Both the position numbers and the translations under genes were made by a program. Below, piece after piece: positions 30,300 to 60,015 of a DNA stretch of 64,000 nucleotides (position 1 is its first letter; each line of letters starts with the position of its first letter). The stretch lies in the NCBI RefSeq assembly GCF_003352045.1, contig NZ_CP025815.1, positions 1,364,001-1,428,000 of the forward strand, in the 5' to 3' direction. The notes under the pieces were generated by a model that saw only the letters and a program-made list of their open reading frames with translations, was not told the origin of the DNA and did no database searches. This stretch comes from Sulfitobacter sp. JL08. Lineage in GTDB: Bacteria; Pseudomonadota; Alphaproteobacteria; Rhodobacterales; Rhodobacteraceae.

Positions 30300-30700
30300 T
30301 CGGCGGTGCCCGTCAGCGGACGATAGGCAACCACTTCTACCTCGACACGGGCATCAACCAGAAGATCGCTGACAACAGCCGACCGGGTCGGGGGCTCGAC
30401 CGGAAAATACTCGCCATAAACCGCGTTGAAACCGGGAAAATCGGCGCGGCTGCGCAGCCACACCATCGATTTCACGACATCCTCCAGCACGCATCCCGCT
30501 TGCGCCAGTGTCGCCTTGATATCTTCCAGCACCGCGCGGGTCTGATCCTCGATTGTGCCGGTGGTCATTGGCACACCATCCTGCATCGGAATCTGCCCTG
30601 TCAGGAAAACAAAATCACCGGCACGAATGGCGCGCGATAATGTCAGAACGCGCCCGTCGATTTCCAGCGGTCCGCCTATGATCTGTTTGCTTTTGGACAT
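30296..30700 (-). CDS. Rid/YjgF (RutC-like) family protein
   Basis: Rid proteins hydrolyse reactive enamine/imine intermediates. The 134-residue product has the family's FLTGQIPMQDG segment and the C-terminal PPTRSAVVSDLLVDARVEVE with the conserved arginine. ATG 30700 has GGGAGG upstream; a longer frame to 30844 would overlap the divergent gene. It is the first gene of the minus-strand operon and is translationally coupled to the hydrolase/flavin-reductase fusion, the same pairing logic as RutC with RutD and RutF. Confidence 0.85.
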   Translation of the reverse strand: MSKSKQIIGGPLEIDGRVLTLSRAIRAGDFVFLTGQIPMQDGVPMTTGTIEDQTRAVLEDIKATLAQAGCVLEDVVKSMVWLRSRADFPGFNAVYGEYFPVEPPTRSAVVSDLLVDARVEVEVVAYRPLTGTAE

Positions 30701-30842
30701 ACCCGCGCCTCCCTTGGTGCAGGGTAGACGTGAATTTGGGGCGGCGTATGCTTTTTTTTCGCCATATGGTGTCGAATTTACGCACGTTTGCCGCGCTGAA
30801 CCGACAAGAATGGGAATCACGCGGATGAAGGGAGCAGGCGAC
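30701..30842. promoter_or_regulatory. Divergent promoter region of the two flavin-pathway operons
   Basis: This 142-bp spacer lies between the Rid start on the minus strand and the aldehyde dehydrogenase start on the plus strand, so it must hold both promoters. It contains an A/T-rich core with a T-run near 30750-30760. I found no convincing palindrome. No regulator gene adjoins; the nearest is the CdhR-like one at 35151. Confidence 0.5.
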
Positions 30843-32324: not shown

Positions 32325-32339
32325 GCAGGAGACAAACAC

Positions 32340-33377: not shown

Positions 33378-33391
33378 AAGGACATTCCCCC

Positions 33392-34195: not shown

Positions 34196-34197
34196 CG

Positions 34198-36212: not shown

Positions 36213-36260
36213 GTCGCGGTCCGCTCTTTCAAATCCAGTAAGGTTTTTCGTCACTATGAC

Positions 36261-36294
36261 GCAAAATAAGTCGAAAAATCGACATTTATTTTGC
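36261..36294. promoter_or_regulatory. Long dyad operator between CdhR-like gene and BKACE operon
   Basis: Outer arms GCAAAATAA/TTATTTTGC and inner arms GTCGA/TCGAC enclose an AAAA centre; only a 2-nt asymmetry interrupts the symmetry. It sits in the divergent promoter 42 bp before the BKACE start, a good candidate binding site for the CdhR-like protein. Confidence 0.65.
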
Positions 36295-36336
36295 CTGTCT
36301 GGCCGCCAAACTGATAAAAAACGGGAGGTGCGGCCA

Positions 36337-37227
36337 ATGAATTACGAAGTGATTGTAACCTGTGCCGTCACGGGCGCGGGGGATACGACAGGGCGCAGCG
36401 CGCATGTCCCTGTGACCCCCAAACAGGTCGCAGATGCCGCGATAGAAGCGGCCAAGGCCGGCGCGGCGGTGGCCCATATCCACGTGCGCGACCCCGAAAC
36501 CGGCAAGGGATCGCGCGATCCCAAACTGTTCAAGGAAGTCGTGGATCGTGTGCGCGACAGTGGCACTGACGTGATCATCAATCTGACGGCCGGCATGGGC
36601 GGCGACTGGGTGCCTGATGCAACCAACCCTGCCTTGCCGGGGCCGGGTACGGACATGATCAGTGCCGAAGACCGGCTGATCCATGTGCATGAATGCATGC
36701 CCGATATCTGTTCACTGGATTGCGGTACGCTGAATTTCGGGGATGGCGACAACATCTATATCTCGACCCCGCCAACGTTGCGTCGGATGGCCGAACTGAC
36801 GCTGGAATGGGGGGTAAAGCCGGAACTGGAAGTGTTCGAGCTGGGGCATATCCGTTTTGCCCGCCAGATGATTGCCGAAGGCCTGATCGCCGATCCGCCG
36901 ATGTTCCAGATTTGTCTGGGTATCCCGTGGGGGGCCGATCAAAGCGTCGATACGATGAAGGTGATGAAAGACCACCTGCCAGATGATGCAAGCTGGGCCG
37001 GTTTTGGGATTTCGCGCATGCAGATGCCGATGGCTGCCGCCGCGGTGGCGATGGGGGGTAATGTGCGTGTCGGGCTGGAGGATAATCTGTTTCTGGATCG
37101 GGGTGTGCTGGCCACAAACGGGCAGCTGGTGACACGGATCGTTGAAATCATCGAAAGGATGGGCGCGCGGGCCATCACCCCGCAAGAAGCGCGCAACAAG
37201 CTGAATTTGCGGGGGGCAAACGCGTAA
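36337..37227 (+). CDS. BKACE-family enzyme, probable 3-dehydrocarnitine cleavage enzyme
   Basis: The 296-residue DUF849 protein begins [20 protein letters not shown] and has the zinc motif AHIHVRDP near residue 46 and [11 protein letters not shown] near residue 246. With acetyl-CoA, homologs in carnitine operons turn 3-dehydrocarnitine into glycine betaine and acetoacetyl-CoA. GGGAGG precedes the ATG. It heads an operon whose next gene, the Pot-type ATPase, starts one base after its stop codon. Linkage to the CdhR-like regulator and carnitine dehydrogenase homolog supports the assignment. Confidence 0.87.
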
Positions 37228-37228
37228 C

Positions 37229-38236
37229 ATGGCAGCCACCACCGTCGATCAGGGCAGTTTGCAGGTTCGGGATTTATCCAAATACTTCGGTGCGTTCTGT
37301 GCCGTTGATAAAGTAAATCTCGAGATTCAGAAGGGTGAGTTCCTGACCCTGCTGGGCCCGTCCGGTTCGGGCAAGACAACGCTTTTGATGATGATCGCGG
37401 GGTTTCTGGATATCACCTCGGGCGATATCGCGCTGGATGGCAATTCGATAGCGGATGTGCCCGCCGAAAAACGCAATTTCGGCATGGTGTTTCAGGGCTA
37501 TGCCCTGTTCCCGCACATGAGCGTGCGCGACAATATCGGCTATGCGCTGTCGGTACGAAAACGCCCCGCTGACGAAATAGCCCGCCGCGTCGACGAAATG
37601 CTGGAACTGGTACAATTGCAGGATTTTGCCGATCGCAAGCCCGGCCAGTTGTCAGGCGGGCAGCAACAGCGCGTTGCCCTGGCCCGCGCGTTGTGTTTCG
37701 CGCCACCCGTTCTGCTGCTGGATGAACCGCTGGGCGCGCTCGACAAAAAACTGCGCGTCGAGGTGCAGGAACAGCTGAAAGACATCCACAACCGCGTTGG
37801 CACTACATTCATATACGTCACCCACGATCAGGAAGAGGCGCTGTCGATGTCGGATCGTGTCGTGATCATGCGCGACGGTGCAATTGAACAGGTCGGCACG
37901 CCTGTCGAACTTTACGAAAACCCGAAAACCGAATTTGCCGCCAGCTTTCTGGGCAAAAGCAACTTCTTGCACCGAAGCGACGGTATCTATGCGCTGCGCC
38001 CCGAAAAGATCGATATCCACCCCGCCGGACAAAGCCAGACAGATGTGCGCCTGTCCGGAACGATCAGGTCCATCACCTATTTCGGATCCATGCAGCGCAT
38101 CATCGTGGCCACGACGGACGGGGCCGAGCTTGAGGTTGATATAGATGTCTGGCGCAACGAGGCGCCGCTGGAAACCGGCCAGTCGGTCGATCTGACTTGG
38201 CGCAAGGGGGCGGCTGTCAAACTGGAAGACGGATAA
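37229..38236 (+). CDS. ABC transporter ATPase, PotA/spermidine-putrescine type
   Basis: This 335-residue ATPase shows Walker A GPSGSGKTT near residue 44, the Q-loop VFQGYALFPH, signature LSGGQQQRVALARAL, Walker B LLLDEP and the H-loop THDQEEAL. A C-terminal TOBE-like regulatory region follows residue 245. It powers the importer formed with the three downstream genes. PotABCD-type systems take up polyamines, opines and betaines; here operon context suggests a carnitine-like or acylated quaternary amine. Confidence 0.9.
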   Translation: MAATTVDQGSLQVRDLSKYFGAFCAVDKVNLEIQKGEFLTLLGPSGSGKTTLLMMIAGFLDITSGDIALDGNSIADVPAEKRNFGMVFQGYALFPHMSVRDNIGYALSVRKRPADEIARRVDEMLELVQLQDFADRKPGQLSGGQQQRVALARALCFAPPVLLLDEPLGALDKKLRVEVQEQLKDIHNRVGTTFIYVTHDQEEALSMSDRVVIMRDGAIEQVGTPVELYENPKTEFAASFLGKSNFLHRSDGIYALRPEKIDIHPAGQSQTDVRLSGTIRSITYFGSMQRIIVATTDGAELEVDIDVWRNEAPLETGQSVDLTWRKGAAVKLEDG

Positions 38237-38321
38237 AAGCACGTAATCAGAACGCCAGCCAATGGCGTCATTTTTGCCAACGTCCGGCACCAAGCCGGGC
38301 ACAACAACAAGGAGAGATATA

Positions 38322-39431
38322 ATGCAAGACAAGCAGTTCATGCGTGAAACGCTGCAAGACGGGGCCAAGGCCTTCAAAGCCGGAAAAATGGACCGGCGCG
38401 CGTTTCTGACCCTGTGCGCGATGACAGGATTTGCGTCGGCCACGGTTCTGGCGGGCAAGGCCGAAGCGGCGGCGGACGAAATTGTAATGTGGAACTGGGG
38501 CGGCCAATCCGAAGAATGCCACGGCAACGCCATCGGGAAACCGTTCGAGGCCGCAACCGGTATGCCGTTGCGCTTTGACACGTCCGGTCCGCTTCAAGGC
38601 AAGATCCGCGAAATGGTCGACAGCGGCAATGTCACCGCCGATGTGTGCGATGCGGACCTGTTTGATTCCATCGCGTTGGGGCCATCGGGACATCTCGAAC
38701 CGATCGATTACAGCGTCGTCAGCAAGGAAAAGACACTGCCGCAATACGCGTTGGAATATGGCGTTTCGATCATCCTTTACGGCTATGCGTTCGTCTATGA
38801 TACCGAAGCCTACGGCGACACGCCCCCCAACAGCTGGGCGGATTTCTTTGACACTGCCAAATTTCCCGGCAAACGCTCGCTTTACAAGTGGGCCAACGGT
38901 TCGCTTGAGGCGGCATTGATGGCCGACGGTGTGGCCAAGGATGCGCTTTATCCGCTGGATATGGATCGTGCGCTGGCCAAGATCAAATCGATCAAGGATG
39001 ACAGCCTGTACTGGGGCTCAGGCTCCGAAGCGCACTCGATGTGTGTGAATGGCGAGGTCAGCATGGGCATGATCTGGCAGAACCGCGGCAAGAACATCGA
39101 AGCGGACACAGACGGGCGCTATAAACTGGTGATGAACGAGGCGCTGGCGATGCCGGGCGCTTATATCGTGCCCAAGGGCAACCCGGCCGGGCGCGAAGCG
39201 ATCATGAAATTCATCGCCGTCGCGCAAGAGCCAGAGGCGCAGTTGCAGCTTCTGGATTGTCTGGGCATGACGCCGTCCAACCCTGCCGCGTTCGCACAAA
39301 TTCCGGACGGGCAGCAGGCTTATGCCATCACGTCGGCGCAAAACATCGACGGTGTCGCGTTTAACGATCCGGTCTGGTGGGGCGAAAATTCGGGCGAGGC
39401 GGTCAACGCCTTCCTTGACGCCATCAGCTGA
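38322..39431 (+). CDS. ABC transporter substrate-binding protein, PotD type
   Basis: The 369-residue periplasmic protein starts at ATG 38322 (GGAGAG upstream; an upstream frame to 38262 is not supported). It has a twin-arginine-like leader (MDRRAFLTLCAMTGFASATV) ending near GKAEAAADE. The mature part shows MWNWGGQ at the start, typical of the spermidine/putrescine group, and an IWQNRGKN stretch. The ligand is not known. A strong hairpin follows the gene. Confidence 0.87.
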   Translation: MQDKQFMRETLQDGAKAFKAGKMDRRAFLTLCAMTGFASATVLAGKAEAAADEIVMWNWGGQSEECHGNAIGKPFEAATGMPLRFDTSGPLQGKIREMVDSGNVTADVCDADLFDSIALGPSGHLEPIDYSVVSKEKTLPQYALEYGVSIILYGYAFVYDTEAYGDTPPNSWADFFDTAKFPGKRSLYKWANGSLEAALMADGVAKDALYPLDMDRALAKIKSIKDDSLYWGSGSEAHSMCVNGEVSMGMIWQNRGKNIEADTDGRYKLVMNEALAMPGAYIVPKGNPAGREAIMKFIAVAQEPEAQLQLLDCLGMTPSNPAAFAQIPDGQQAYAITSAQNIDGVAFNDPVWWGENSGEAVNAFLDAIS

Positions 39432-39437
39432 ACCCTG

Positions 39438-39471
39438 CGCGATCCGGCGGATTATGACCCGCCGGATCGCG
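39438..39471 (+). promoter_or_regulatory. Intra-operon hairpin after potD-type gene
   Basis: Perfect 13-bp arms (CGCGATCCGGCGG and its complement) flank an 8-nt loop, without a T-run. The position, directly after the binding-protein gene and before the permeases, matches the stabilising hairpin seen after the TRAP binding-protein gene at 20172. Confidence 0.75.
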
Positions 39472-39504
39472 TGACCCAAACCCATGTGATCGGGCCGAAC
39501 CAAG

Positions 39505-40353
39505 ATGAACGCGCTGCAAAAACACATAAGTCCGGGATGGCTGCTGGTCGCGCCGTTCCTGTTGCTTGTTGTGGCACTTTATCTTGGCCCGATCGCGAAT
39601 ATCCTGTGGCTTAGCGTGACAGACCCCGAACCGGGTCTGGGCAATTATGCCAAGCTGTACGAAAGCGATGCCTTGCCGCGCATCATCTGGACCACCTTGC
39701 GGATTTGCATTGTCACAACGGTATTTTCCGTCCTTCTGGGGTATTCCATTGCCTACGCCATGGTGCACTGCCACCAGAAGCAAAAGAATTACATGCTGAC
39801 CCTGCTGTTGGTGTCCTTCTGGATTTCGATCCTTGTGCGCACCTTTTCCTGGCTGATGCTGCTGGGGCGCAACGGGCTGGTCAACAACACGCTGGAAGGC
39901 ATCGGGATCATTTCCGAACCGATCGCCTTCATGCGCAACGAGCTGGGCGTGCTGATCGGGATGGTGCATTACATGGTGCCCTATGCGGTGCTGCCGTTGC
40001 TGGTGAACATGCAATCGCTGGATACGCGGGTCATGGATGCCTCGCGCAATCTGGGGGCGACGGGTGCGCAAACCTTCTGGCGGGTCTATCTGCCGCTGAC
40101 CACACCGGGTCTTGTCGCCTCTACGCTGCTGGTCTTTATCCTGAGCCTTGGGTTTTACGTGACACCTGCGGTTCTGGGCGGCGGCAAGGTGCTGATGATC
40201 GCCGAATACATCTCGGTCCAGCTTCTGGTGACGCTGCAATGGGGCACGGCAGCGATGCTGGCAGCGCTGATGCTGTTCGGCGTGCTGTCGATGCTCTACA
40301 TCATGTCCAAATTCATGAAGCTCAGCACCGTGTTCGGGGGCAGCGCGTCATGA
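39505..40353 (+). CDS. ABC transporter permease, PotB type
   Basis: This 282-residue inner-membrane permease has six hydrophobic segments and the EAA loop (DTRVMDASRNLGATGAQTFWRVYLPL, near residue 175) that contacts the ATPase. It pairs with the PotC-type subunit; the two genes overlap at ATGA, giving matched synthesis. Confidence 0.88.
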   Translation: MNALQKHISPGWLLVAPFLLLVVALYLGPIANILWLSVTDPEPGLGNYAKLYESDALPRIIWTTLRICIVTTVFSVLLGYSIAYAMVHCHQKQKNYMLTLLLVSFWISILVRTFSWLMLLGRNGLVNNTLEGIGIISEPIAFMRNELGVLIGMVHYMVPYAVLPLLVNMQSLDTRVMDASRNLGATGAQTFWRVYLPLTTPGLVASTLLVFILSLGFYVTPAVLGGGKVLMIAEYISVQLLVTLQWGTAAMLAALMLFGVLSMLYIMSKFMKLSTVFGGSAS

Positions 40354-41147
40354 AAACGGGAATTTTGTCACGGTTCAACAGGGTTGGCGCATGGGTTTTG
40401 CTGCTGTTTCTGGTCACGCCCGCCTTGATCGCGATCCCGGTGTCACTGACACCAAAACGGTTCCTGTCAATGCCGGGCGGCGAACTGTCGCTGCGCCATT
40501 TTGAAAAACTGTTCACCAGCCCCGAATGGATGTCGAGCTTTTTTCAAAGTGCGGTGATCGGGTTGGCGACGTCTTTTCTGGCCACGGTTCTGGGCACGCT
40601 GTGCGCCATCGGATTGTGGCGCGTGTCATCGAAATACAGCGAGGTCGTGCGCGCCTTTCTGTTGCTGCCGCTGATCATTCCGCAAATCATTTCCGCCATG
40701 GCGTTTTACCGGCTGTGGATACCGATGGGCCTGCTGGACAGCTACGCCGGCCTGATCATCGCCCATACCATTCTGGCCGCGCCGATGGTGCTGATCACGG
40801 TCAGCGCGTCGCTTGCGAACTTCGATCCGAAACTGGAACAGGCGTCCAAAAATCTGGGCGCGTCGAATTGGACAACCATGCGCCGCGTGATCCTGCCCTC
40901 AGTGCGCCCCGGCGTGTATGCAGGCGCCTTGTTCGCCTTTATCCTCAGTTGGGATGAAATCGTGGTGACGTTGTTCATTTCCAAATTCAACGTCTACACG
41001 CTGCCACGCCGGATGTGGAACGGCATCCGCGAAAACACCGACCCGACAGTGGCCGCGGCCGCCGTCGTCCTGATTGCCATAACGCTGATTGCCTTTACCG
41101 CATCGGCCATCATGTCGCGGCGCAAAGCCGCGCAATCCAACCCCTGA
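40350..41147 (+). CDS. ABC transporter permease, PotC type
   Basis: The 265-residue permease has six transmembrane segments and the EAA loop (KLEQASKNLGASNWTTMRRV, near residue 155). It completes the importer with the PotA-, PotD- and PotB-type proteins. The start ATG 40350 overlaps the previous stop. The acyl-CoA dehydrogenase gene follows after 13 bp, so uptake and catabolism share one transcript. Confidence 0.88.
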   Translation: MKTGILSRFNRVGAWVLLLFLVTPALIAIPVSLTPKRFLSMPGGELSLRHFEKLFTSPEWMSSFFQSAVIGLATSFLATVLGTLCAIGLWRVSSKYSEVVRAFLLLPLIIPQIISAMAFYRLWIPMGLLDSYAGLIIAHTILAAPMVLITVSASLANFDPKLEQASKNLGASNWTTMRRVILPSVRPGVYAGALFAFILSWDEIVVTLFISKFNVYTLPRRMWNGIRENTDPTVAAAAVVLIAITLIAFTASAIMSRRKAAQSNP

Positions 41148-41160
41148 AGAGGAGCGAGAC

Positions 41161-42321
41161 ATGAACAGCATCACCTCGCACGAAAACGAACTTTTGCTCA
41201 ACACGGTGCGCAGTTTTCTGGAAACCGAGATATATCCGCACGAAGACATGGTCGATCGCGCGGGCGAAGTGCCCGAAGACCTGGGCCGCCAGATCGAAAC
41301 CCGCGCCAAAGAGGTCGGGCTTTATGCATCCAACCTGCCGGAGTCAGTCGGTGGGGGCGGGTTGAACTATTCCGCGATGGCACTGGTCGAACGCGAATAC
41401 GGCAAGACGACACATGCCCTGCACAGCTGGATCGGCCGCCCGACCGAACTGCTTTTAGCGTGTCAGGGGGATCAGATCGCGCGCTATCTGGATCCGTGTG
41501 TAACGGGCGAGAAACGCGAATTGTTTGCACTGACAGAACCCGAGGCCGGATCGGATGTGATGGGCATGAAAACCAATGCGCGCCGCGATGGTGACGATTG
41601 GATACTGAACGGATCAAAGCATTTTATTTCCGGCCCGTGCATGCCCGATTTCGCCATCGTGTTCGCCGCAACGGGTGTCGATGAAACAAAACGCGGCCCG
41701 CGCAAACGGGTTACGGCATTTCTGGTCGATGTCGGCACGCCGGGGTTTGATTGCCGCGAAGGCAACAAATGCGTCAGCTATCGTGGCTACAAGACCTTCC
41801 AGCTCAGCTTTGACAATGTGCGCCTTGGACCGGGGCAGGTTCTGGGCGAAGAAGGCCGCGGGCTGGAGTTGTCAGGCAAATGGCTGGGTATGGGCCGCAT
41901 CTGGGTCGGGGCGACCTGTTGTGGCAAGGCCGAACGCCTGATGGAAATGGCCACCGACTGGGCGGCCAACCGCAAACAGTTCGGCAAACCCATCGGCACG
42001 TTTCAGGCCACTGGTTTTCGCCTTGCCGATATGGCCATCGGATTGCGCACCGCGGATCTTTTGGTGGCGGACGCGGTGCGCCGTGCGGATGCCGGAATGA
42101 TGGAAGATGCCGATGCGGCCATGGTCAAGGTTTACTGTTCGGAAATGCTGAACAAGGTTGCCGATGACACGGTGCAGATTTACGGTGGCATGGGCCTGAT
42201 GGAAGAATTGCCGATCCAGCGTTTGTGGCGGGATTCGCGGCTGGAACGGATCTGGGACGGCACCAGTGAAATCCAGCGCCATATCATCACCCGTTCGATA
42301 CTAAGGCCGCTTGGTGCATGA
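41161..42321 (+). CDS. Acyl-CoA dehydrogenase family protein
   Basis: The 386-residue flavoenzyme has ACAD signatures: LTEPEAGSDVMGMKTNA (FAD/substrate site), a Trp-bearing helix GRIWVGATCCGKAERL, RKQFGKPIGTFQ and the C-terminal IWDGTSEIQRHI. In many ACADs the Glu of EGT is the catalytic base; Asp stands there in this protein. It could oxidise gamma-butyrobetainyl-CoA or a fatty acyl-CoA. GAGGAG precedes ATG 41161; the stop overlaps the next gene at ATGA. Confidence 0.87.
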   Translation: MNSITSHENELLLNTVRSFLETEIYPHEDMVDRAGEVPEDLGRQIETRAKEVGLYASNLPESVGGGGLNYSAMALVEREYGKTTHALHSWIGRPTELLLACQGDQIARYLDPCVTGEKRELFALTEPEAGSDVMGMKTNARRDGDDWILNGSKHFISGPCMPDFAIVFAATGVDETKRGPRKRVTAFLVDVGTPGFDCREGNKCVSYRGYKTFQLSFDNVRLGPGQVLGEEGRGLELSGKWLGMGRIWVGATCCGKAERLMEMATDWAANRKQFGKPIGTFQATGFRLADMAIGLRTADLLVADAVRRADAGMMEDADAAMVKVYCSEMLNKVADDTVQIYGGMGLMEELPIQRLWRDSRLERIWDGTSEIQRHIITRSILRPLGA

Positions 42322-44417
42322 CGCCCGCGCAGCGCCGGAACTTTGACAGGTTACTGAACCCGCGCCACATTGCCTTTGTCGGCGGGCGTGATGCGATCAC
42401 GGCCATCAACGAGGCACGCCGCCGTGGATTTGCAGGCCAGATGTGGGCCGTGAACCCGACGCGGCCCGATCTGGCCGATGTGCCCTGTTTTGCCAGCCTT
42501 GATGATCTGCCCGATGCACCGGATGCCGTCTATCTGGCCATCCCCGCTCAGGCGGCGGTTCTGGCGGTGGCGCAACTGGCCGCGATGGGGGCAGGGGGTG
42601 TCGTATGCTATACCGCCGGTTTCAAGGAGGCGGGGCACTCCGGGGCCAAGGCCGAAGCTGCGCTGAAACGTGCAAATGGCGACATGGCCCTGATCGGCCC
42701 GAACTGTTACGGCGTAATCAATTATCTGGGCAATGCGGCGCTATGGTCTTTCGAACATGGCGGCGCGTCGCCGGGATACGGCGCGGCCATCATCACCCAG
42801 TCGGGTATGTTTTCCTCTGACATCACAATGAGCCAGCGATCGTTGCCGATGGCCTATATGATTTCTGCGGGCAACCAGACCGTTCTGGGCCAAGAGGATT
42901 TTCTGGATGTCCTGTGCGAAGATCCCCGCGTACGCGCCATTGGTCTGCACATCGAAGGCTTGCGCGATGTGGCCCGTTTTGAACGCGCCGCACTCAAGGC
43001 ATTGGAACACAACACACCGGTCGTGGCGCTGAAAACCGGCAGTTCCGCAATTGGCGGAGCGCTGACGGTCAGCCACACCGGATCGCTGTCGGGCGCCAAC
43101 GATCTTTATCAGGCGATGTTTGAACGCACCGGCTTGATTTCCGTCACGAACCCTGCGCAAATGCTGGAAACATTGAAGTATCTTTGTGTCGTCGGCGCGC
43201 CGAAGGGACGCAACATTGCAGGCTTTACCTGTTCGGGTGGCGGCGCCACGATGCTGGCGGATCACGGCGAAACGATCGGCCTGACCTATCCCGACTTTAA
43301 CGGCGATAGCGCGCAGCGTCTGGGGGCGCTGTTGCCTGATATAGCCACCGTGTCCAACCCGCTGGATTACACAACACCGATCTGGGGCCAGCCCGAACAT
43401 ACCTATCCGGTGTTTGCGGCCGCGATGCAGGGGCTGGTGGCCGATGCGGCCGTTCTGGTGCAGGATTATCCCGCTGCCGGTCTGGATGCGTCCAAGATCT
43501 ACTACCAGAATGATGCCGCAGCCTTTGCGCGTGCGGCAGCGGAAAGCGGTGTGCCCGCCGCGATCTGCGCGACCCTGCCGGAAAATCTGGATCAGGACAC
43601 GCGCGATGCCCTGATCGCACAGGGCGTTGCCCCGATGCAGGGCCTGCACGAAACGCTGAATGCAATGTTGGATGCGGCGGGCTGGGCGCAGGCACGTGCG
43701 CGCATCCTGACACACCCGCCTCAGCCATTGGCGCCGCCACAGTTAACGGGCCTGGTGAAAATGGTGAACGAGGCAGAAGGCAAGGCATGGCTGCAAAAGG
43801 CGCGCGTGCCGGTGCCGCGCGGAAAATGTGTGCCGGCATCGGGGCTTTTGGCCGCCGCTGCTGAACTCGGCTATCCGGTTGCGCTAAAGATGATGGGTCC
43901 GAAACTTGCCCACAAAACCGAGGCGGGCGCGGTTGCGCTGGGGCTGTCATCGTCTGACGAATTGTCCGCTGCCATCTGCCGGATGAAGCAGGACGTGGCC
44001 GCATTTGATGCGGATGCCGTGAACGACAGTTTTCTGGTGGAACAGATGTCACCGCCGCCGCTGGCCGAATTGATCGTGTCCCTGCGCCGCGATGCGCAGT
44101 TCGGCTGGGCGCTGACACTGGGCAGCGGCGGTATACTGGTCGAACTGGTGGGCGATGCCGGAACGCTGTTGTTGCCAAGTTCGCCCGCCGACATTCAGAC
44201 CGCGCTGGCCAGGTTGAAAGTGGGCCATTTGCTGGGTGGGTTTCGTGGCCGGCCAAGGGCCGAACTGGCGGCAATCGCTGACGCCCTGCACCAGCTTTGC
44301 AGCTATGTTCTGGCTGGTGATGATCCCATAGCCGAAGTCGAAATCAATCCGATGTTTGTCTATCCCGACAGCATCATGGCCGTTGATGTTCTGCTACACC
44401 TCGAGGACCGGACATGA
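42318..44417 (+). CDS. ADP-forming acyl-CoA synthetase family protein
   Basis: The 699-residue protein is a single-chain ADP-forming acyl-CoA synthetase (acetate-CoA ligase/AcdAB type). The N-terminal CoA-binding domain has AFVGGRDA and GPNCYGVINY; the phosphorylated-His region is VSHTGSLSGANDLY near residue 255. The C-terminal third is an ATP-grasp domain (YPVALKMMGPKLAHKTEAGA; LGSGGILVELVGD). It activates a carboxylic acid to its CoA ester for the neighbouring dehydrogenase. Both its ends overlap neighbours by ATGA, in a strongly coupled operon. The acid is unknown. Confidence 0.88.
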   Translation: MTPAQRRNFDRLLNPRHIAFVGGRDAITAINEARRRGFAGQMWAVNPTRPDLADVPCFASLDDLPDAPDAVYLAIPAQAAVLAVAQLAAMGAGGVVCYTAGFKEAGHSGAKAEAALKRANGDMALIGPNCYGVINYLGNAALWSFEHGGASPGYGAAIITQSGMFSSDITMSQRSLPMAYMISAGNQTVLGQEDFLDVLCEDPRVRAIGLHIEGLRDVARFERAALKALEHNTPVVALKTGSSAIGGALTVSHTGSLSGANDLYQAMFERTGLISVTNPAQMLETLKYLCVVGAPKGRNIAGFTCSGGGATMLADHGETIGLTYPDFNGDSAQRLGALLPDIATVSNPLDYTTPIWGQPEHTYPVFAAAMQGLVADAAVLVQDYPAAGLDASKIYYQNDAAAFARAAAESGVPAAICATLPENLDQDTRDALIAQGVAPMQGLHETLNAMLDAAGWAQARARILTHPPQPLAPPQLTGLVKMVNEAEGKAWLQKARVPVPRGKCVPASGLLAAAAELGYPVALKMMGPKLAHKTEAGAVALGLSSSDELSAAICRMKQDVAAFDADAVNDSFLVEQMSPPPLAELIVSLRRDAQFGWALTLGSGGILVELVGDAGTLLLPSSPADIQTALARLKVGHLLGGFRGRPRAELAAIADALHQLCSYVLAGDDPIAEVEINPMFVYPDSIMAVDVLLHLEDRT

Positions 44418-45627: not shown

Positions 45628-46526
45628 CTATTCACGGTGCCCCAGCAGAAAATTGCGGACCTCCAGCGTGGCGGGCGCGCAATTATCGCGATGGGTCAGA
45701 TAATAACCAAGCCCCGTCCGTTTGAGAGCCGGCCCAAGGCGGATAATCTCGCCTTTTTCAACCCATGCATCATCCAGCCCCGCAACACCGATGGCCACAC
45801 CTTCGCCCGCGCGCACCATATCCAGAAGGGTGGGAAAATTGCGCACTTCGGGCTTGGGGATTGCGGGCAGGGGGGGCCGTGATGGCGGAACCAGGATTTC
45901 CATGTCATCCATCCCACATTGTATTGATCGCCGTGTTCCAGCAACCATTCCCCGCGCAGAGTGAATGGCAGGTTATCGGCGTCAATCTCGGGATGCGCGG
46001 CCAGAAAATCCGGTGACGCGATCACATGGGTTTCCTCTTCGAACAGCAGGTCGGAATGCACACCGGCCCATTGCCCGGTGCCAAAGCGGATCGACAGATC
46101 AACCCCCTGCCGATCAAAGGCATCATAGTTTTCGGATGTCACAAAATTGATGACCGCGCCGCCCGCCGCCATGCGCAACCCGGAAATCCGCGGGATCACC
46201 CACAGATGCGCCATGCCAAAGGACGCGCCGATCACCACTTCGGATCGTGGCGCGGCGCGAATTGCGCCCAGCCCGATCTCAAGCCGGTCAAGGACCGAAA
46301 TCGCCAGATCGGCGGCCTCCTGTCCGTCCTTGGTCAGCGAAACCGCATTGCCGTGGCGGTGAAACAGCGCGACGCCCAGCCAACCTTCCAGATTGGCGAT
46401 GTGGCGCGTAACGGCGGGTTGCGCCACAGTCAGTTCCTGCCCGGCGCGGGTAAAGCTGCCATTGCGGGCGACCGCGTCAAACGCGATCAGGGCATTCAGG
46501 GAAGGCAGGCGACGACGGCTGGCCAT
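45628..46526 (-). pseudogene. LysR-family regulator interrupted by a frameshift
   Basis: The N-terminal ~215 codons read a normal GcvA-type LysR protein (LNALIAFDAVARNGSFTRAG helix-turn-helix; DRQGVDLSIRFGTGQWAG). Around 45870-45876, a run of seven G, the reading moves to the next frame, which completes the effector domain (VRNFPTLLDMVRAGEGVAIG) to the stop at 45628. The shift fits one missing G. It may be a sequencing error, a phase-variable tract or true inactivation. The gene is divergent from the HD-domain gene and probably controlled it. Confidence 0.8.
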
Positions 46527-46642
46527 ATCTGCGGCTCCATAACAAAAAGGCATGATGCCTTGCCTGTTTTTGGGCCTATCAGACGCGAATGGAAAGGCCT
46601 ATTGTGTCGGCAAGCAATCGTTCAGCGAAAAAGGGCGCCCGC

Positions 46643-47260
46643 GTGCAAACTGTAAAATTCACCCAGATGAAAGAAGGCGACAAGGCGGATTACGATCTGC
46701 TGAACGCGCATGAAACCGAATATGCAAGCCATACGGCCACCCGCCTGTTGGACGCATTGGAAAGCCTTGATACATCGCTTTCGGGCTATCAGATCACGCG
46801 GCTGGGCCATTCATTACAATCCGCGACCCGCGCATGGCGCGACGGCGCCGATACCGACTGGCTGGTTTCGGCATTGCTGCACGATATCGGCGACATCTAT
46901 GCACCGTACAACCATGATGAATATGCGGCTGCGATCCTGCGGCCCTTCGTGCGTGAACAATGCGCATGGGTGGTGGAAAAACATGGTGATTTCCAGATGC
47001 TTTATTACGCGACCCATGTCGGGGCTGATCCGAACAAACGTGACGCCTACAAGGGCCATGCCTATTTTGACGATTGCGCCACGTTTTGCGAGCGTTGGGA
47101 TCAAACCAGTTTTGACCCGGATTATGATACGCTGCCACTGTCGTTTTTCGCGCCGATGGTGCATCAGGTTTTCGCCCGCAAGGCCTATGACCCGGGCGTT
47201 ATTCAGGCCGGGGTGCGCGTCGCACTTCAAAACCCCGAGATTGCATCACAGCGCGCCTAG
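46643..47260 (+). CDS. HD-domain protein, probable mixed-valent diiron oxygenase (PhnZ/TmpB-like)
   Basis: The 205-residue protein (GTG 46643, AAGGG upstream) shows the six-ligand pattern of dinuclear HD enzymes: His56 (RLGHSLQSA), His80-Asp81 (LLHDIGD), His91, His114 (EKHGDFQ) and an Asp in DQTSFDPDYD near 153-160. It is often annotated as a phosphohydrolase, but close relatives of this size, PhnZ and TmpB, are iron oxygenases that cleave a C-P bond after a partner hydroxylates the alpha carbon. Here the partner may be the membrane hydroxylase encoded 21 bp downstream. Substrate unknown. Confidence 0.75.
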   Translation: MQTVKFTQMKEGDKADYDLLNAHETEYASHTATRLLDALESLDTSLSGYQITRLGHSLQSATRAWRDGADTDWLVSALLHDIGDIYAPYNHDEYAAAILRPFVREQCAWVVEKHGDFQMLYYATHVGADPNKRDAYKGHAYFDDCATFCERWDQTSFDPDYDTLPLSFFAPMVHQVFARKAYDPGVIQAGVRVALQNPEIASQRA

Positions 47261-47281
47261 CGCCAACCCCGAGATCCGATC

Positions 47282-48298
47282 ATGACCGATGAAACGCCCC
47301 AGACCGGCGCGCCCCGCGCCGTGCGAAAGATATGGAATTACACACCGGCCCTGCCGCTCAGGCTTGCGCCCTACTGGGACTGGCCTTTGGCACCTCTTGC
47401 CTCGCTCAAATATCTGGCGCGCAGTTGGAATCCGGTGGCGCAGCGCTGTCTGTTTCTGGTCTGCGCGGTTATCACCTGGCTGTATTTCACTCCGGAACTT
47501 GAACGCGCGCAGACATGGCAGTTTGACTGGGTGTTCGAAATCTGGCTGCGCAATCTGGTGATCCTGCTGGTGGTCGCGGGCGGATTGCATCTGCTGTTGC
47601 TGCGGTTTCGTGCGCAGGGCGATGAATATCGCTATGACATGCGCCCGATGGCGAGGGGCGCCAAGGTGTTCTATTTCAAGAACCAGGTCTGGGATAACAT
47701 GTTCTGGACGCTGGGGCCGGCGCTGGCCTTCTGGACCTTTTGGGAAAGCCTGATGTACTGGGCCTATGCCAACGGCTGGGCCACGCTGATCACATTTACG
47801 GATAATCCGGTCTGGTTCGTGGGCCTGATTGTGCTGATCCCGTTATGGGCAGGGTTTCATTTCTACTGGCTGCACCGGCTGCTTCATGTCGGCCCGCTCT
47901 ATACACGCGTGCACGCGTGGCATCACAAGAACGTCAATACCGGCCCGTGGTCGGGTCTGGCGATGCATCCGGTTGAAAGCTTTTTCCTGATGTTTGACAC
48001 GATGATCTTTTTCATCGTCGCCTCGCATCCGGTGCACGTGATTTTCCTGCTGTTTCACCATGGCATCGGCGCGCCCACATCCCATGCCGGATTTGAAAAC
48101 CTGAAGATCGGGGAATCTGGCCGTTTCCAGTTGGGCGATTTTTATCACCAGCTGCACCACAAGTTTTTCGATTGCAACTATGGCACATGGGAAACGCCGT
48201 GGGATGCGTGGTTCAATACATTTCACGATGGCACGCCGCAAGGCGACGCGCTGGTCAAGGAGCGGCGGCGGAAAATCTGGGCAGGCAAAGGCGATTGA
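47282..48298 (+). CDS. Membrane di-iron hydroxylase (fatty acid hydroxylase/sterol desaturase superfamily)
   Basis: The 338-residue inner-membrane protein has about five hydrophobic helices and three cytosolic histidine boxes: H193-x4-H198-x3-H202 (HFYWLHRLLH), H211-x2-HH (HAWHH) and H289-x2-HH (HQLHH). This set binds two irons and hydroxylates or desaturates with oxygen. The gene follows the HD-domain gene by 21 bp. That pairing suggests sequential oxidation of one substrate: hydroxylation here, then cleavage by the HD enzyme. The substrate is not known. Confidence 0.83.
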   Translation: MTDETPQTGAPRAVRKIWNYTPALPLRLAPYWDWPLAPLASLKYLARSWNPVAQRCLFLVCAVITWLYFTPELERAQTWQFDWVFEIWLRNLVILLVVAGGLHLLLLRFRAQGDEYRYDMRPMARGAKVFYFKNQVWDNMFWTLGPALAFWTFWESLMYWAYANGWATLITFTDNPVWFVGLIVLIPLWAGFHFYWLHRLLHVGPLYTRVHAWHHKNVNTGPWSGLAMHPVESFFLMFDTMIFFIVASHPVHVIFLLFHHGIGAPTSHAGFENLKIGESGRFQLGDFYHQLHHKFFDCNYGTWETPWDAWFNTFHDGTPQGDALVKERRRKIWAGKGD

Positions 48299-56042: not shown

Positions 56043-56460
56043 TCCCCTCAAATGAAGTTAGCCTACCAGAACATTGAGACGGTAGGTCGTTAGGCCCGCA
56101 AATCAGTCACTGGTGCTGACTGCGGCGAATGACTGGTGAGAGCCCACAGCCGACATGCCGGTTTCTCGCCGCGCGTTGGTAGCACAAAAATTTCTGCGGG
56201 AGCGCAATTTTTCATGCTGCTTGGCAGCGAGGAGAGCAGCCGTTCGAGTGAGGCGCAGCGTAAAGACAGCCGCTATGAACAGTTCGCGGACAATCTCGCT
56301 GGTCAACCGGGTCGATTATTCGCCGGCCCCACCGACAACGCCCGTCGAAAAAAATATGTGGCTTGTCCTCATCGGAGGTGCAGCGCGTTTATTCGAGGTA
56401 CGGCTCGACAGACAGGTCCAGGAAACCATAAGATCGGGAGACACCAGGATTGGGGCTCCA
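56043..56460. other. 418-bp gap without a convincing gene
   Basis: The reading frame of the next gene is open backward to 56155, but that leader is arginine-rich, lacks a ribosome site and does not look like protein. I see no RNA gene or repeat with confidence. Base composition rises in GC through the interval toward the flavoprotein gene. Confidence 0.4.
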
Positions 56461-57867
56461 ATGGCGAGACAATCGACTGAGACTGACTACCTCGTCATCG
56501 GGGCTGGGGCGATGGGCATGGCGTTCACCGATGCGCTTATCGACAACGCCGACGTTCACGTCACCGTCGTTGACCGACGCCATGTCGCCGGAGGACACTG
56601 GCAAGACGCCTACCCGTTCGTGCAGTTGCACCAAGCGTCGCTCTTTTACGGAGTCGCATCGACCGAATTGGGGACCGGCACCATACAACGTGAAGGGCCG
56701 GAAGCCGGGTTGCACGAACGCGCCCATCAGCCGGAGATCCAAGCTTACTACCACGATATACTACATCGCCGATTCCTCAGCTCCGGCCGCGTCACTTTCC
56801 TCGGAGGTTACGAATACCACGAAGAAGAAGGTCATCACGTTACATCAGTGGTTTCGGGCGAGAGTTTTCAGGTGAACGTCAGGCATCGGGTTGTCGATGC
56901 AAATTACCTGTCGCCAAACATTCCCGCGACCACGCCGCCGCCGTTCGGTGTCGCTGACGACGTCCGCGTCGTGCCAGTCAATCAACTCGCGCGGCTGGCT
57001 GAGGCGCCGAATGATTTCGTCATCGTAGGTTCGGGTAAGACTGCGACCGACGCAATCATCTGGCTGCTGGCAAACGGCGTGCAGCCAGATCGCATTGTGT
57101 GGGCCCGTCCCCGCGACCCGTGGATGCTCAATCGTGCGGTGGTCCAGCCGGACCCGGCCGTGGCGCTCAACCTCGCGGCGGCCACCATGGCGTCCGCGAT
57201 CGAAGCCGGGTCGGTCGACGAAATGTTCCTGCGCCTCGAGGCCGCTGGCGTGATGCTCCGGATCGATCGCGACGTCGTCCCGACCATGGCGAAGACGCCG
57301 ACCCTCGGACAGTGGGAACTCGATCTGCTACGCACCATCGATCGCGTCGTCCGGCTCGGTCACATCAGGAGCGTCAACCGACGCGAGATTGTGTTCGAGA
57401 AGGGCTCTATCCCATTGGCTCCGCGTGCGCTCGTCGTCCACTGCGCGGCCTCCGGACATCGCTATCCACCGCTCGTCCCGATCTGGGGGGCTGACAAGAT
57501 ACGCCTTCAGACCATCCGGGCAGGCTTCCCGTGCTTTTGCGCAGCACTGGCCGGTTACGTGGAGGCCACCCGCGACGACGACCGCGAACGCAACCGGCTG
57601 TGTCCGCCGAACACGCTTCCCGACAACCCAACGAACTGGGCAGAAATGCAGATGCGCGGCATCTTGGCGAGCCGCTCGTATGGCGCCCAGCCGGACATTG
57701 CTTTATGGGCTAACCAGTGTGCCCTCAACCCGGCGCGTCTCGACCCGTCGCGGGCTGAAGACCTTCCCGTCACGTCAGCTTCCGCTCGTCTTGCCTCTGT
57801 ATCTGGGCGAGGCCTAGAGCGTATGTCTGCGCTAGCAGGCATGCCGTTTCCCAGCTTTGGGACCTAG
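56461..57867 (+). CDS. FAD/NAD(P)-binding oxidoreductase, flavin monooxygenase-like
   Basis: The 468-residue protein begins with an FAD-binding Rossmann motif (DYLVIGAGAMGMAFTDALI) and has a second nucleotide-binding motif (DFVIVGSGKTATDAIIWLL near residue 182), as in flavin-containing monooxygenases. A GG-H-W-x-D-A-Y-P-F stretch near residue 45 fits the FAD site of that group. No specific substrate is suggested. The start at ATG 56461 is by homology-like content; its ribosome site is weak. The gene is markedly GC-richer than those around it, which suggests acquisition from another lineage. Confidence 0.75.
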   Translation: MARQSTETDYLVIGAGAMGMAFTDALIDNADVHVTVVDRRHVAGGHWQDAYPFVQLHQASLFYGVASTELGTGTIQREGPEAGLHERAHQPEIQAYYHDILHRRFLSSGRVTFLGGYEYHEEEGHHVTSVVSGESFQVNVRHRVVDANYLSPNIPATTPPPFGVADDVRVVPVNQLARLAEAPNDFVIVGSGKTATDAIIWLLANGVQPDRIVWARPRDPWMLNRAVVQPDPAVALNLAAATMASAIEAGSVDEMFLRLEAAGVMLRIDRDVVPTMAKTPTLGQWELDLLRTIDRVVRLGHIRSVNRREIVFEKGSIPLAPRALVVHCAASGHRYPPLVPIWGADKIRLQTIRAGFPCFCAALAGYVEATRDDDRERNRLCPPNTLPDNPTNWAEMQMRGILASRSYGAQPDIALWANQCALNPARLDPSRAEDLPVTSASARLASVSGRGLERMSALAGMPFPSFGT

Positions 57868-58302
57868 ACGAGCCAGCGCTTGCGTCCACGTTCCCCTGCC
57901 TCAAGATGTGGTAGCGCGTTGTTTACGCCAGTTGGCGTCACCTGACAGAAGGTCCGGCAAGTCCGCTAGGCGGTCATGAATGCTGAGTGTAGCGAACGTC
58001 TGGTGCCGGTGAAAGCAGTCGTTCAGAACCAAAACTTCGAATTTCCAGTCGCGAACGTCTGCTAAACGGGACACAGCAGGCACCCGCCAAGAACCTACGA
58101 AGGTCTGTTCCGAGCCCTGATGCAGACATTTCCTTATTTACCAAAACTGAAACGACGATCCGCCGAGCTGAACAAACTCTCTAGTTTTCCTCAAAAAAAT
58201 CACCTTGTTTTCACTCTCAAGCGGGGCCTGTATTTCACACTGGGCGATCGGGCTGACATAACCAAAGTAGCACGCTAAGTTCTAATTAACAGGGAGATGG
58301 GA
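57868..58302. other. 435-bp gap with a dispersed repeat
   Basis: No credible gene is present. The interval contains one copy of a ~36-nt repeat (58022-58057), shared with 62110-62144, and an AT-rich tail that should hold the cyclase promoter. Confidence 0.45.
58022..58057 (+). repeat. Dispersed intergenic repeat, copy 1
   Basis: The segment starts TTCAGAAC, contains TCGAATTTCCA and ends GAACG. It aligns with 62110-62144 with a single-base gap and a few substitutions. Both copies are intergenic and in the same orientation. Confidence 0.6.
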
Positions 58303-60015
58303 ATGGACAGACGGCTCACGACGGTACTGGCGGCTGATATTGTTGGGTATTCAGGGCTTATGGATCATGATCGCGAGGGCACTATTGCAGCGCTCAAATC
58401 ATTTCGCGAAGAAACGCTCATGTCGATCCTCGCGGCCCATAATGGGACCTTGATCAAAAGTATGGGGGACGGCTGGATCGTCGAGTTTTTTTCGACGTCC
58501 GACGCCGCCGATTGCGCCATCGCAATACAATCGTCCCGCAAATCAAACGATATTCGACTCCGAATTGGCATTCACACGGGCGAAGTGGTCACCGATGGCG
58601 ACGACATATTCGGTGATGGCATCAATATCGCCGCGCGGCTTGAATCTTTGGCCAAGCCGGATCAGATTTTGATTTCGGATACCTCTCACAACAGCCTCGA
58701 CCGAGGCAACGCAGCCTTGTTTGACGGCGGAGAGCAAACGGAACTGAAGAACATCACCCGCCGCATCGGCGTCTGGTGCTGGCCCAAAGGGACGTCGCCA
58801 AATCTTGCCGAAATGTCAGATGTCAGGCCTGGAATTGCAGTCCTTCCGTTCGACAACATGTCGGGGGATCCCGAGCAGGAGTTTTTCGCTGATGGCATCA
58901 CTGAAGACATTATCACCGAGCTTTCACGGTTCCGTTGGCTGATGGTGGTGGCGCGAAACTCTTCGTTCACATTCAAAGGCCAAAGCACGGATATTCGCGA
59001 AGTTGGTCGAACCCTGGGCGTGCGCTATGTGCTGGAGGGGTCGGTCAGAAGGGCGGGTCAACGAGTCCGTATTACGGGGCAGCTCATTGATGCTGATAAC
59101 GGCAGCCATCTTTGGGCTGATCGCTTTGACGGGGTGCTGGATGACATTTTCGATCTTCAGGACAAGGTCACCCAAGAAGTGGTTACTGCAATTGAACCGT
59201 CGCTCCGGCACGCCGAAACCAATCGTGCACGGGCGAAGCCAACGGAGAACCTGGAAGCCTATGAGCTCTACCTCCGGGCACAATCGCACTTCCACCTGTT
59301 GACGGACAATGACAACAGAGAGGCGATCAAGCTGACCGCACTCGCTTTGGAGCGGGATCCTGATTACGCAGCCGCAGCGGGGCTGATGGCCTGGCTGCAC
59401 ATTCAGCGCATGGTTCAGGGCCTCGAGCCCGTAGGTGAGGGGCCAAAATCAGCCGTTGCTGCAGCTGAGAAGGTTCTGACGAGCGATCGCGCCGACGGGA
59501 TTGCCATGGCCTATGCGGCACACTCGATCTCTATGTTGGCACGCGACTTGCCACGGGCCAGGGAGGCCTTCAAACAGGCGTTGGCCGAAATCCCGAACGC
59601 GGCGACCGTTCATATGTTGGCATCTATGAACCTGTTCCTTCTTGATCGGCCGCAAGATGCGTTGGAACATGCGTCTCAGGCTATCGTCCTTAGCCCGCAC
59701 GATCCGCTGCGCCATGCCGCCTATCTCGTCCAAGGCTGTGCGTTCTTTCACATGGGACGCTACGAAGAGGCCGCCGAGGCTTGCCGCAATGCTTTGGCGG
59801 TACGCTCAGGATTTGTTATGAGCCACCTCATGCTCATTGCGTCACTCGGACAACTGGACAAAGTCGATGTGGCGCAGGCGGCGGTGAGTGACCTGCAGGC
59901 GCTGCGTCCGGAAATAACGGCCTCGTCCCCGCAGGCTCAGATGCCGATATTTACCGTTCCCGCCTCCGCAGAAAACTGCCGCAAAGGCTGGTTGAAGGCT
60001 GGTTTGCCACAATGA
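58303..60015 (+). CDS. Class III adenylate/guanylate cyclase with C-terminal TPR-like region
   Basis: The ~570-residue soluble protein has a class III cyclase domain at residues 5-170 (LTTVLAADIVGYSGLMDHDR with the metal-binding Asp; MGDGWIVEFFS; IGIHTGEVV; GDGINIAARLE). A central region follows with the pattern AVLPFDNMSGDPEQEFFADG and RYVLEGSVRRAG. The C-terminus has helical repeats resembling TPRs (residues ~320-530). Proteins of this layout are common in Alphaproteobacteria and probably make cAMP in response to protein partners. AGGGAG fits ATG 58303 better than 58297. Confidence 0.9.
   Translation: MDRRLTTVLAADIVGYSGLMDHDREGTIAALKSFREETLMSILAAHNGTLIKSMGDGWIVEFFSTSDAADCAIAIQSSRKSNDIRLRIGIHTGEVVTDGDDIFGDGINIAARLESLAKPDQILISDTSHNSLDRGNAALFDGGEQTELKNITRRIGVWCWPKGTSPNLAEMSDVRPGIAVLPFDNMSGDPEQEFFADGITEDIITELSRFRWLMVVARNSSFTFKGQSTDIREVGRTLGVRYVLEGSVRRAGQRVRITGQLIDADNGSHLWADRFDGVLDDIFDLQDKVTQEVVTAIEPSLRHAETNRARAKPTENLEAYELYLRAQSHFHLLTDNDNREAIKLTALALERDPDYAAAAGLMAWLHIQRMVQGLEPVGEGPKSAVAAAEKVLTSDRADGIAMAYAAHSISMLARDLPRAREAFKQALAEIPNAATVHMLASMNLFLLDRPQDALEHASQAIVLSPHDPLRHAAYLVQGCAFFHMGRYEEAAEACRNALAVRSGFVMSHLMLIASLGQLDKVDVAQAAVSDLQALRPEITASSPQAQMPIFTVPASAENCRKGWLKAGLPQ

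Follow-up and report, generated by a model that had tools for sequence, protein, structure and literature searches.

A putative HD-domain diiron oxygenase beside a membrane hydroxylase in Sulfitobacter sp. JL08, with recurrent hydroxylase pairing and relatives in carnitine gene sets

What reaction might be carried out by an HD-domain protein whose gene is immediately followed by that of a membrane hydroxylase? The question is raised by a stretch of 64,000 nucleotides of Sulfitobacter sp. JL08 (contig NZ_CP025815.1, positions 1,364,001 to 1,428,000; this whole stretch is called the window), where the two genes, both open reading frames, lie 21 bp apart. The first-pass annotation took them for an HD diiron oxygenase and a di-iron hydroxylase that could carry out a two-step oxidation on a lipid-like or amphiphilic substrate, in analogy with the C-P bond cleavage by PhnY-PhnZ and TmpA-TmpB but with a different first enzyme. 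The features concerned are as follows, in positions of the window.

46643 to 47260, forward strand: HD-domain protein, putative mixed-valent diiron oxygenase (HD), ligands H56, H80, D81, H91, H114 and D153
47282 to 48298, forward strand: membrane hydroxylase (FAH; PF04116, sterol desaturase/fatty acid hydroxylase superfamily) with three His boxes
45696 to 46553, reverse strand: LysR-type regulator (GcvA-like), divergent from HD and FAH, C-terminal part apparently frame-shifted
41161 to 42321, forward strand: acyl-CoA dehydrogenase (context), 50-52% to the counterpart in the carnitine operons of relatives
42318 to 44417, forward strand: ADP-forming-type acyl-CoA ligase (context), 36-41% to the counterpart in the carnitine operons
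36094 to 37227, forward strand: context gene of the window cluster
35151 to 36254, reverse strand: AraC-family regulator with a DJ-1/PfpI domain (context)
34054 to 35154 (limits of the open reading frame), forward strand: carnitine-dehydrogenase-like 3HCDH protein (context), score below the NCBIfam cut-off
33392 to 34195, forward strand: crotonobetainyl-CoA-hydratase-like protein (context), score below the NCBIfam cut-off

HD has 205 amino acids when translation starts at GTG 46643; the in-frame ATG 46589 is an alternative start that would add 18 amino acids, and the start at 46643 is preferred because it agrees with the N-terminus of the relatives. Upstream of HD and FAH lies a cluster with genes of an aldehyde dehydrogenase, a luciferase-like monooxygenase, a crotonobetainyl-CoA-hydratase-like protein, a carnitine-dehydrogenase-like (LcdH-like) protein, BKACE, an ABC transporter, an acyl-CoA dehydrogenase and a CoA ligase, plus the AraC regulator with the DJ-1/PfpI domain, with the LcdH-like and hydratase-like genes about 11-13 kb from HD. 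Judged by its sequences, this cluster appears to be related to the carnitine gene set of the relatives but divergent from it. An AraC domain combined with a DJ-1/PfpI domain is presumably also what CdhR and GbdR, two GATase1-like regulators, consist of. Both are presented, in passages of PMC5806209, as AraC regulators of the GATase1-like subfamily.

HD scores 23.9 bits with the Pfam model HD (cut-off 22) and 25.2 bits with the Pfam model MIOX (cut-off 25). When 56 sequences of its family are aligned with nine TmpB-like proteins, H56, H80, D81, H91, H114 and D153 occupy the ligand columns of TmpB, with five of the six being invariant in the family and H56 present in 55 of the 56 sequences. The six-ligand set noted in the first-pass annotation is thus present, and the Asp that was left unplaced there is D153. 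The structure model predicted from the 56 sequences has a pLDDT of 93.5. In a Foldseek search of the PDB with this model, PhnZ and TmpB account for all of the ten best hits (E 9e-7 to 1e-4), with the next one at E 0.05, and VIA-align 2 gives Z values of 16.4 for PhnZ, 15.6 for TmpB, 10.6 and 9.1 for MIOX and at most 7.5 for the remaining listed chains. A profile sequence search with the HD family also finds PhnZ (2e-9) and TmpB (3e-7). Since the nearest folds are those of PhnZ, TmpB and then MIOX, the HD family groups with the oxygenases within the HD superfamily, and the suggested kinship with PhnZ/TmpB-type oxygenases is borne out by the predicted fold. Based on fold, ligands and relationships, HD probably forms a branch of its own among the HD mixed-valent diiron oxygenases, so that the corresponding iron state and activity would be expected of it.

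It does not follow that HD acts on phosphonates. The YxxE loop is absent from HD, where the positions read L46-x-x-Y49, with Y49 invariant in the 56 sequences. The HDxGH motif of PhnZ and TmpB is HDxGD in the HD family, the last His being replaced by Asp84 in all 56 sequences; the Lys four residues past the fourth His is Gln118 (56/56), and the Arg three residues before the last Asp is Glu150 (52/56). We take the His of HDxGH and these Lys and Arg residues to be the basic residues at the phosphonate in PhnZ and TmpB, and Lys108 and Arg158 of PhnZ, the positions of which hold Gln118 and mostly Glu150 in the HD family, to be phosphonate ligands. Such a charge-reversed pocket argues against a phosphonate substrate. 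The alignment also shows shorter loops in HD than in the PhnZ/TmpB-like proteins. In section 1.4 of PMC8177086 the YxxE loop is given for PhnZ and TmpB and not for MIOX. With the NCBIfam phosphonate HD models, HD scores 32.1 bits (TIGR03276, cut-off 214.6), 26.1 bits (NF049941, cut-off 300) and 25.2 bits (NF052439, cut-off 300), far below these cut-offs, while a separate TmpB-like protein encoded in the same genome scores 198.1 bits with TIGR03276, also just below the cut-off. Moreover, the annotation of three plasmid loci with HD shows no phosphonate gene next to it. Because the loop and the presumed basic contacts are not conserved and the scores are far below the cut-offs, these tests place HD in the wider class of HD oxygenases but outside its phosphonate-cleaving members, and C-P cleavage, inferred before by analogy, has been dropped as the leading reading.

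The survey of HD partners covered 248 genomes from the same family, apparently one per genus, with gene calls in the relatives made by a simple open-reading-frame caller and tblastn, so that HD genes classed as solo may hide diverged partners. The co-occurrence figures ignore kinship and include the window that raised the question. A long HD homologue is carried by 84 of the 248 genomes, at 85 places; an 85th genome, with a short match, is not counted, and the places exclude two fragments in G223 as well as the short matches in G244 and at G090:C4. At 33 of the 85 places a PhyH-type 2OG oxygenase lies directly upstream of HD, with gaps of 2-59 bp; its copy at locus L105 belongs to Pfam PhyH. 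HD is carried by 46 of the 48 genomes with this PhyH (E 1e-40 or better), and no PhyH match was found in the window genome. In the PDB, PhyH is matched best by 6zyk/6zyl, an entry pair labelled as a monooxygenase, which we take to be ThoJ, a histidine beta-hydroxylase.

FAH orthologues of at least 69% identity occur in 8 of the 248 genomes (7 without the window), and FAH lies directly downstream of HD at 6 of these 8 (5 of 7 without the window), 21-69 bp from match to match. All eight genomes also have HD (hypergeometric P 1.4e-4) and seven of them fall in the HD group of at least 69% identity (P 1.8e-5), both values ignoring kinship and counting the window that prompted the question. Four more pairs were found on a Phaeobacter inhibens plasmid and on contigs of Tateyamaria, Octadecabacter and Roseovarius, giving ten distinct FAH-HD loci with the window included, and in seven of the ten a divergent LysR gene stands immediately before HD. 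The two genes therefore do occur together in other genomes, and their pairing is not chance. It is noted that PhyH, HD and FAH form a trio at two of the ten loci (L105 and L180), and that five of the six FAH-HD genomes have no PhyH match (P = 0.064). The latter absence fits a different first enzyme and is suggestive only; with both enzymes present at two loci, the idea that FAH simply stands in for PhyH has weak support. The proposal of a two-step oxidation with another first enzyme is thus partly supported: HD orthologues pair with a 2OG hydroxylase and the pairing with FAH recurs, but the trio loci, the FAH orthologues found apart from HD and the HD genes with neither partner speak against simple replacement. 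On the whole, the arrangement of a hydroxylase with an HD oxygenase is well supported.

The history of the pairing was read from an HD tree of 138 rows, which comprise 47 solo rows (with none of the partners sought, so that HD without either hydroxylase also occurs), 44 with PhyH, 34 in a carnitine operon, 9 with FAH, 2 with PhyH and FAH and 2 with a class II aldolase. Some rows are of one genome or identical (L109/L152, L035/L144, L042/L174 and L050/L206), L125, L053 and L115 have long branches, and the duplicates L036 and L040 and the FAH loci devoid of HD (L102, L103, L107, L110, L111 and L123) were left out. The 11 FAH rows, interspersed among the PhyH-linked rows, need 9 changes on the tree, at least 4 of them forced by well supported branches; only 7 changes are needed if the two rows with PhyH and FAH are a separate group. 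The HD and FAH distances over the 10 loci are uncorrelated (r 0.15, Mantel 428 of 2000). With the FAH rows so scattered and the distances uncorrelated, the pairing is not one inherited cassette, which is ruled out as an explanation. A pairing that was made or lost repeatedly argues for a functional link instead of one fixed cassette.

We now consider FAH itself. It scores 68.6 bits with PF04116 (FA_hydroxylase, cut-off 31) and has hydrophobic segments and the His boxes HRLLH at 198, HAWHH at 211 and HQLHH at 289, which agrees with the earlier description of a three-His-box membrane hydroxylase adjoining HD. Its predicted model, made from 5 sequences, is poor (pLDDT 42.6), it has no match in the PDB at E 1, and no characterized member of the window FAH subfamily was found in NCBIfam or the PDB. 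FAH paralogues of 40-48% lie within 15 kb of the CoA ligase at no fewer than 14 places in at least 11 genomes, as counted among the matches listed (150 FAH and 150 ligase places), and among the same matches none of the 8 close orthologues does so. Of 12 stretches fetched around FAH paralogues, 11 contain genes of a class II aldolase, FAH, an acyl-CoA dehydrogenase, a CoA ligase and a crotonobetainyl-CoA-hydratase-like protein, nine of them in this order and two (L227 and L234) arranged otherwise, while the stretch of the window genome itself (L233) has the aldolase and FAH only.

On four of eight plasmid loci FAH is accompanied by 2Fe-2S and FAD-oxidoreductase genes, as expected of a membrane di-iron hydroxylase that is fed by ferredoxin; the other four lack them. 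On 3 rhizobial plasmids the operons that hold FAH paralogues also encode a PanB-like protein, a 2Fe-2S protein and an FAD-oxidoreductase, and a PanB-like gene follows FAH in L102, L108, L122 and L179. FAH orthologues also stand with no HD beside them in G199, in G038 and on two Ruegeria plasmids, so FAH may have a job of its own. A lipid substrate, guessed from the membrane enzyme alone, was set aside, as the paralogues sit among genes of small-molecule catabolism, both carnitine-type and other.

The neighbourhoods of HD point to carnitine. Among 80 named loci, the best 80 of at least 592 confirmed HD relatives, 33, mostly from Mesorhizobium, have the genes BKACE (dehydrocarnitine cleavage), HD and LcdH (carnitine dehydrogenase) in this order on one strand, followed by genes of an acyl-CoA dehydrogenase, a CoA ligase and a crotonobetainyl-CoA-hydratase-like protein. 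Five of the gaps between BKACE and HD were printed as large; by match coordinates only that of L204 (about 380 bp) is truly far, and the other four are read as alignments crossing a stop upstream of the start. The dehydrogenase of L138 scores 598 bits, above the NCBIfam cut-off for carnitine 3-dehydrogenase of 592, and the same placement of HD is seen in G010 (L037), in another part of the HD tree. An LcdH match (E 1e-55 or better, a permissive threshold that lets in weaker paralogues) is present in 83 of the 84 HD genomes versus 101 of the 164 without HD, and the CoA ligase in 80 of 84 versus 86 of 164, with kinship ignored in both comparisons. Among the LcdH-positive genomes, the ligase is present in 79 of 83 with HD versus 80 of 101 without (P 0.001, kinship again ignored).

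Ten genomes among those of the 33 carnitine-operon loci were looked at for partners: a PhyH match is missing from nine, and no FAH exceeds 41% identity in any of the ten, with paralogues of 31-41% in five. With PhyH and close FAH lacking, HD must find its hydroxylated substrate there otherwise, and carnitine is the simplest candidate. LcdH and BKACE have their closer homologues in the window genome at sites away from HD and FAH, so that the window cluster may serve a carnitine analogue; at the other FAH-HD loci no such divergent carnitine-like set was found. Genes of carnitine dehydrogenase, BKACE and gamma-butyrobetaine dioxygenase are reported for one SAR11 region in a section of PMC12421898, where a class II aldolase is also named in the legend of a figure.

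We propose, with somewhat less than even confidence, that HD cleaves a C-C bond of a carnitine-type beta-hydroxylated quaternary amine, the hydroxyl of which comes from interchangeable enzymes; the activity and the substrate are those that gene context and fold suggest. In this model, HD would use O2 to cut the bond between the carbinol carbon and a neighbouring carbon, releasing a shorter betaine. A candidate reaction is carnitine (or a homologue) + O2 giving glycine betaine + glycolate, which balances on paper and would be the carbon counterpart of the conversion by TmpB of a hydroxy-phosphonate to glycine betaine and phosphate. As the gene contexts suggest, the hydroxyl may be supplied by the PhyH-type 2OG oxygenase in many Rhodobacteraceae, by the membrane di-iron hydroxylase FAH in the window and at nine other loci, and, where HD is part of a carnitine operon, by the carnitine pathway. 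The fuller statement, that an undescribed branch of mixed-valent HD diiron enzymes cleaves beta-hydroxylated quaternary amines at a C-C bond during carnitine-type catabolism and is fed by interchangeable hydroxylases from two unrelated families, so that in the window both steps would be di-iron O2 chemistry, is doubtful. The model has two weak points. The loss of the basic residues suits a carboxylate no better than a phosphonate, so the acidic pocket is a weak point of the carnitine reading. Moreover, if LcdH and BKACE make betaine from carnitine, as they are taken to do in the same operons, direct cleavage of carnitine would be redundant. Also counting against the model are the position of the closer LcdH and BKACE homologues of the window genome away from HD, the lack of the divergent set at the other FAH-HD loci, the distance of all 8 close FAH orthologues from the listed ligases, the FAH genes that have no HD at their side and the 47 solo rows among 138.

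The main rival within the same frame places HD upstream of carnitine breakdown: PhyH or FAH would beta-hydroxylate trimethyllysine, and HD would cut the C2-C3 bond of 3-hydroxy-trimethyllysine oxidatively to give gamma-butyrobetaine, thus taking the place of the aldolase and the aldehyde dehydrogenase with which eukaryotes make carnitine. This is rather unlikely as a whole, yet many observations are consistent with it: the CoA ligase, acyl-CoA dehydrogenase and crotonobetainyl-CoA-hydratase-like genes with which HD sits are likely gamma-butyrobetaine entry genes, that ligase being found in 80 of 84 HD genomes; the best PDB match of PhyH (6zyk/6zyl) is presumably the histidine beta-hydroxylase ThoJ; genes for a class II aldolase and for the same CoA enzymes lie with the FAH paralogues; and the acidic pocket suits a cation. 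By contrast, with PhyH missing from nine and FAH above 41% from all of the ten carnitine-operon genomes, those genomes would have to obtain the hydroxylated substrate in some other way. It is quite possible, on the other hand, that FAH and HD, although adjacent and subject to the same LysR regulator, catalyse different steps, with FAH working with a PanB-like protein or alone. This would account for the FAH orthologues that exist without HD, for the PanB-like gene after FAH in four loci, for the paralogue operons with PanB-like, 2Fe-2S and FAD-oxidoreductase genes on the three rhizobial plasmids and for the trio with PhyH at L105 and L180, but less readily for an FAH immediately 3' of HD at ten distinct, scattered loci and for HD in all eight genomes with an FAH orthologue.

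Two further explanations deny HD the proposed chemistry. Dinuclear hydrolases can have the same ligand pattern, and HD could be a metal-dependent phosphohydrolase or lyase that lies near hydroxylase genes by accident. Section 1.4 of PMC8177086 describes the majority of known HD proteins as phosphohydrolases. With PhnZ, TmpB and MIOX at the top of the fold similarity and with HD pairing recurrently with two unrelated hydroxylase families, such a role is very unlikely. Still less credible is that FAH hydroxylates a lipid-like phosphonate from which HD then releases phosphate by C-P cleavage. PhnZ and TmpB are indeed the nearest folds of HD, the six metal ligands are identical and the phosphonate HD models are its best NCBIfam matches; however, these matches reach 25-32 bits against cut-offs of 214.6-300, YxxE is absent (L46/Y49), HDxGD stands in place of HDxGH, Gln118 and mostly Glu150 occupy the positions of the presumed phosphonate ligands Lys108 and Arg158, the window genome codes for another protein that is TmpB-like, and the three annotated HD plasmid loci have no phosphonate gene beside HD.

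If the carnitine-type cleavage is true, the chemistry of HD oxygenases would extend from phosphonates and inositol to quaternary amines, and a common conserved branch (at least 592 relatives) would be tied to carnitine genes, which would suggest that Rhodobacteraceae and rhizobia need O2 at one step when they break down carnitine-like compounds. Annotators would then have reason not to label these genes phosphohydrolases or inositol oxygenases. The variety of partners, which may be a 2OG enzyme or a membrane di-iron enzyme or be lacking altogether, would also test how two-step oxidations are assembled. Among the literature matches listed, mostly from outside subscription papers, there is no description of the HD-FAH pair, in line with the first-pass annotation, or of an HD gene in carnitine operons, and none of the matches listed gives a pathway of bacterial trimethyllysine or carnitine catabolism with such oxygenases. 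Section 1.4 of a 2020 review (PMC8177086) names three HD oxygenases, MIOX, PhnZ and TmpB, and passages of PMC10574752 name four PhnY/PhnZ-type versions, all acting on phosphonates.

Finally, we compare the locus with known systems. With the PF04116 membrane di-iron hydroxylases FAH has the three His boxes in common, and 2Fe-2S and FAD-oxidoreductase genes accompany its paralogues on four of eight plasmid loci. AlkB/XylM-type membrane di-iron hydroxylases likewise have three His boxes; in contrast to both groups, the window FAH subfamily is found among genes of small-molecule catabolism. MIOX has the HD diiron oxygenase fold (Z 9.1-10.6), is a precedent for C-C cleavage and, by section 1.4 of PMC8177086, also lacks the YxxE loop, but it has 15-16% identity with HD over the aligned part and its substrate is a cyclitol. 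The P. aeruginosa carnitine operon leads from carnitine to glycine betaine, and the window cluster also has an AraC regulator, taken as GATase1-like; by contrast, the passages of PMC5806209 on that operon name no HD or PF04116 gene. The closest likeness in fold is to TmpA-TmpB and PhnY-PhnZ, where a 2OG hydroxylase and an HD diiron oxygenase cleave a C-P bond: the HD fold, the six ligands and the two-gene logic of hydroxylase and HD are common to both, the latter literally as PhyH and HD in many orthologues of the window HD. The window HD differs from them in lacking YxxE, in the changed charges at the positions taken to contact the phosphonate and in its shorter loops, its partner is a membrane PF04116 enzyme, and its contexts are those of carnitine-type catabolism. 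Note also that the substrate of TmpB itself resembles carnitine in its trimethylammonium-carbinol half.

It is noted that the LysR regulator gene lying divergently in front of the gene of the HD-domain protein (HD), a putative mixed-valent diiron oxygenase, seems to be frameshifted (window 45628-46553), with its C-terminal part running on in a different frame, and that a run of C is present close to the apparent frameshift:

45696-46553, minus strand, LysR gene
45628-45948, open reading frame in another frame than the main part of LysR, C-terminal continuation of LysR

This LysR gene may be a broken regulator or may reflect a sequencing error.

Further upstream, at 28560-44417, the window holds a second, divergent set of carnitine/gamma-butyrobetaine-type genes. 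This set has an ABC transporter of its own and an AraC regulator that carries a DJ-1/PfpI domain; it also encodes a luciferase-like monooxygenase and an aldehyde dehydrogenase, whose genes are divergent from that of an alpha/beta hydrolase fused to a flavin-reductase domain (28560-30299). The closer homologues of the carnitine dehydrogenase (LcdH) and of the dehydrocarnitine-cleavage gene (BKACE) in this genome are located at about 3.0 Mb (locus L235). Elsewhere in the window, a 570-aa open frame at 56155-57867 has no match in Pfam, and it adjoins the following gene:

58297-60015, protein combining an adenylate/guanylate-cyclase domain with TPR repeats

Paralogues of FAH, the PF04116 membrane hydroxylase encoded directly downstream of HD, are seen repeatedly in a module of class II aldolase, FAH, acyl-CoA dehydrogenase, CoA ligase and crotonobetainyl-CoA-hydratase-like protein, with one or two FAH copies per module (L223-L232 and L234, from genomes of the same family as the window); locus L236 of the window genome carries this module without FAH. 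On Mesorhizobium and Bradyrhizobium plasmids (L218, L219, L222), an FAH paralogue adjoins PanB-like, 2Fe-2S and FAD-oxidoreductase genes, and at L102, L108, L122 and L179 FAH is followed by a PanB-like gene.

A distant relative of HD with 43% identity is encoded on a 12.9-kb mobilizable plasmid of Sphingobium baderi (L125, 5052-7353), where it has a class II aldolase gene on one side and an alpha/beta-hydrolase gene on the other. A third HD group (L066-L071, identity 42-47%) has its own divergent LysR in five of the six loci and, in three of the six, a nearby 835-aa protein similar to dimethylglycine dehydrogenase.
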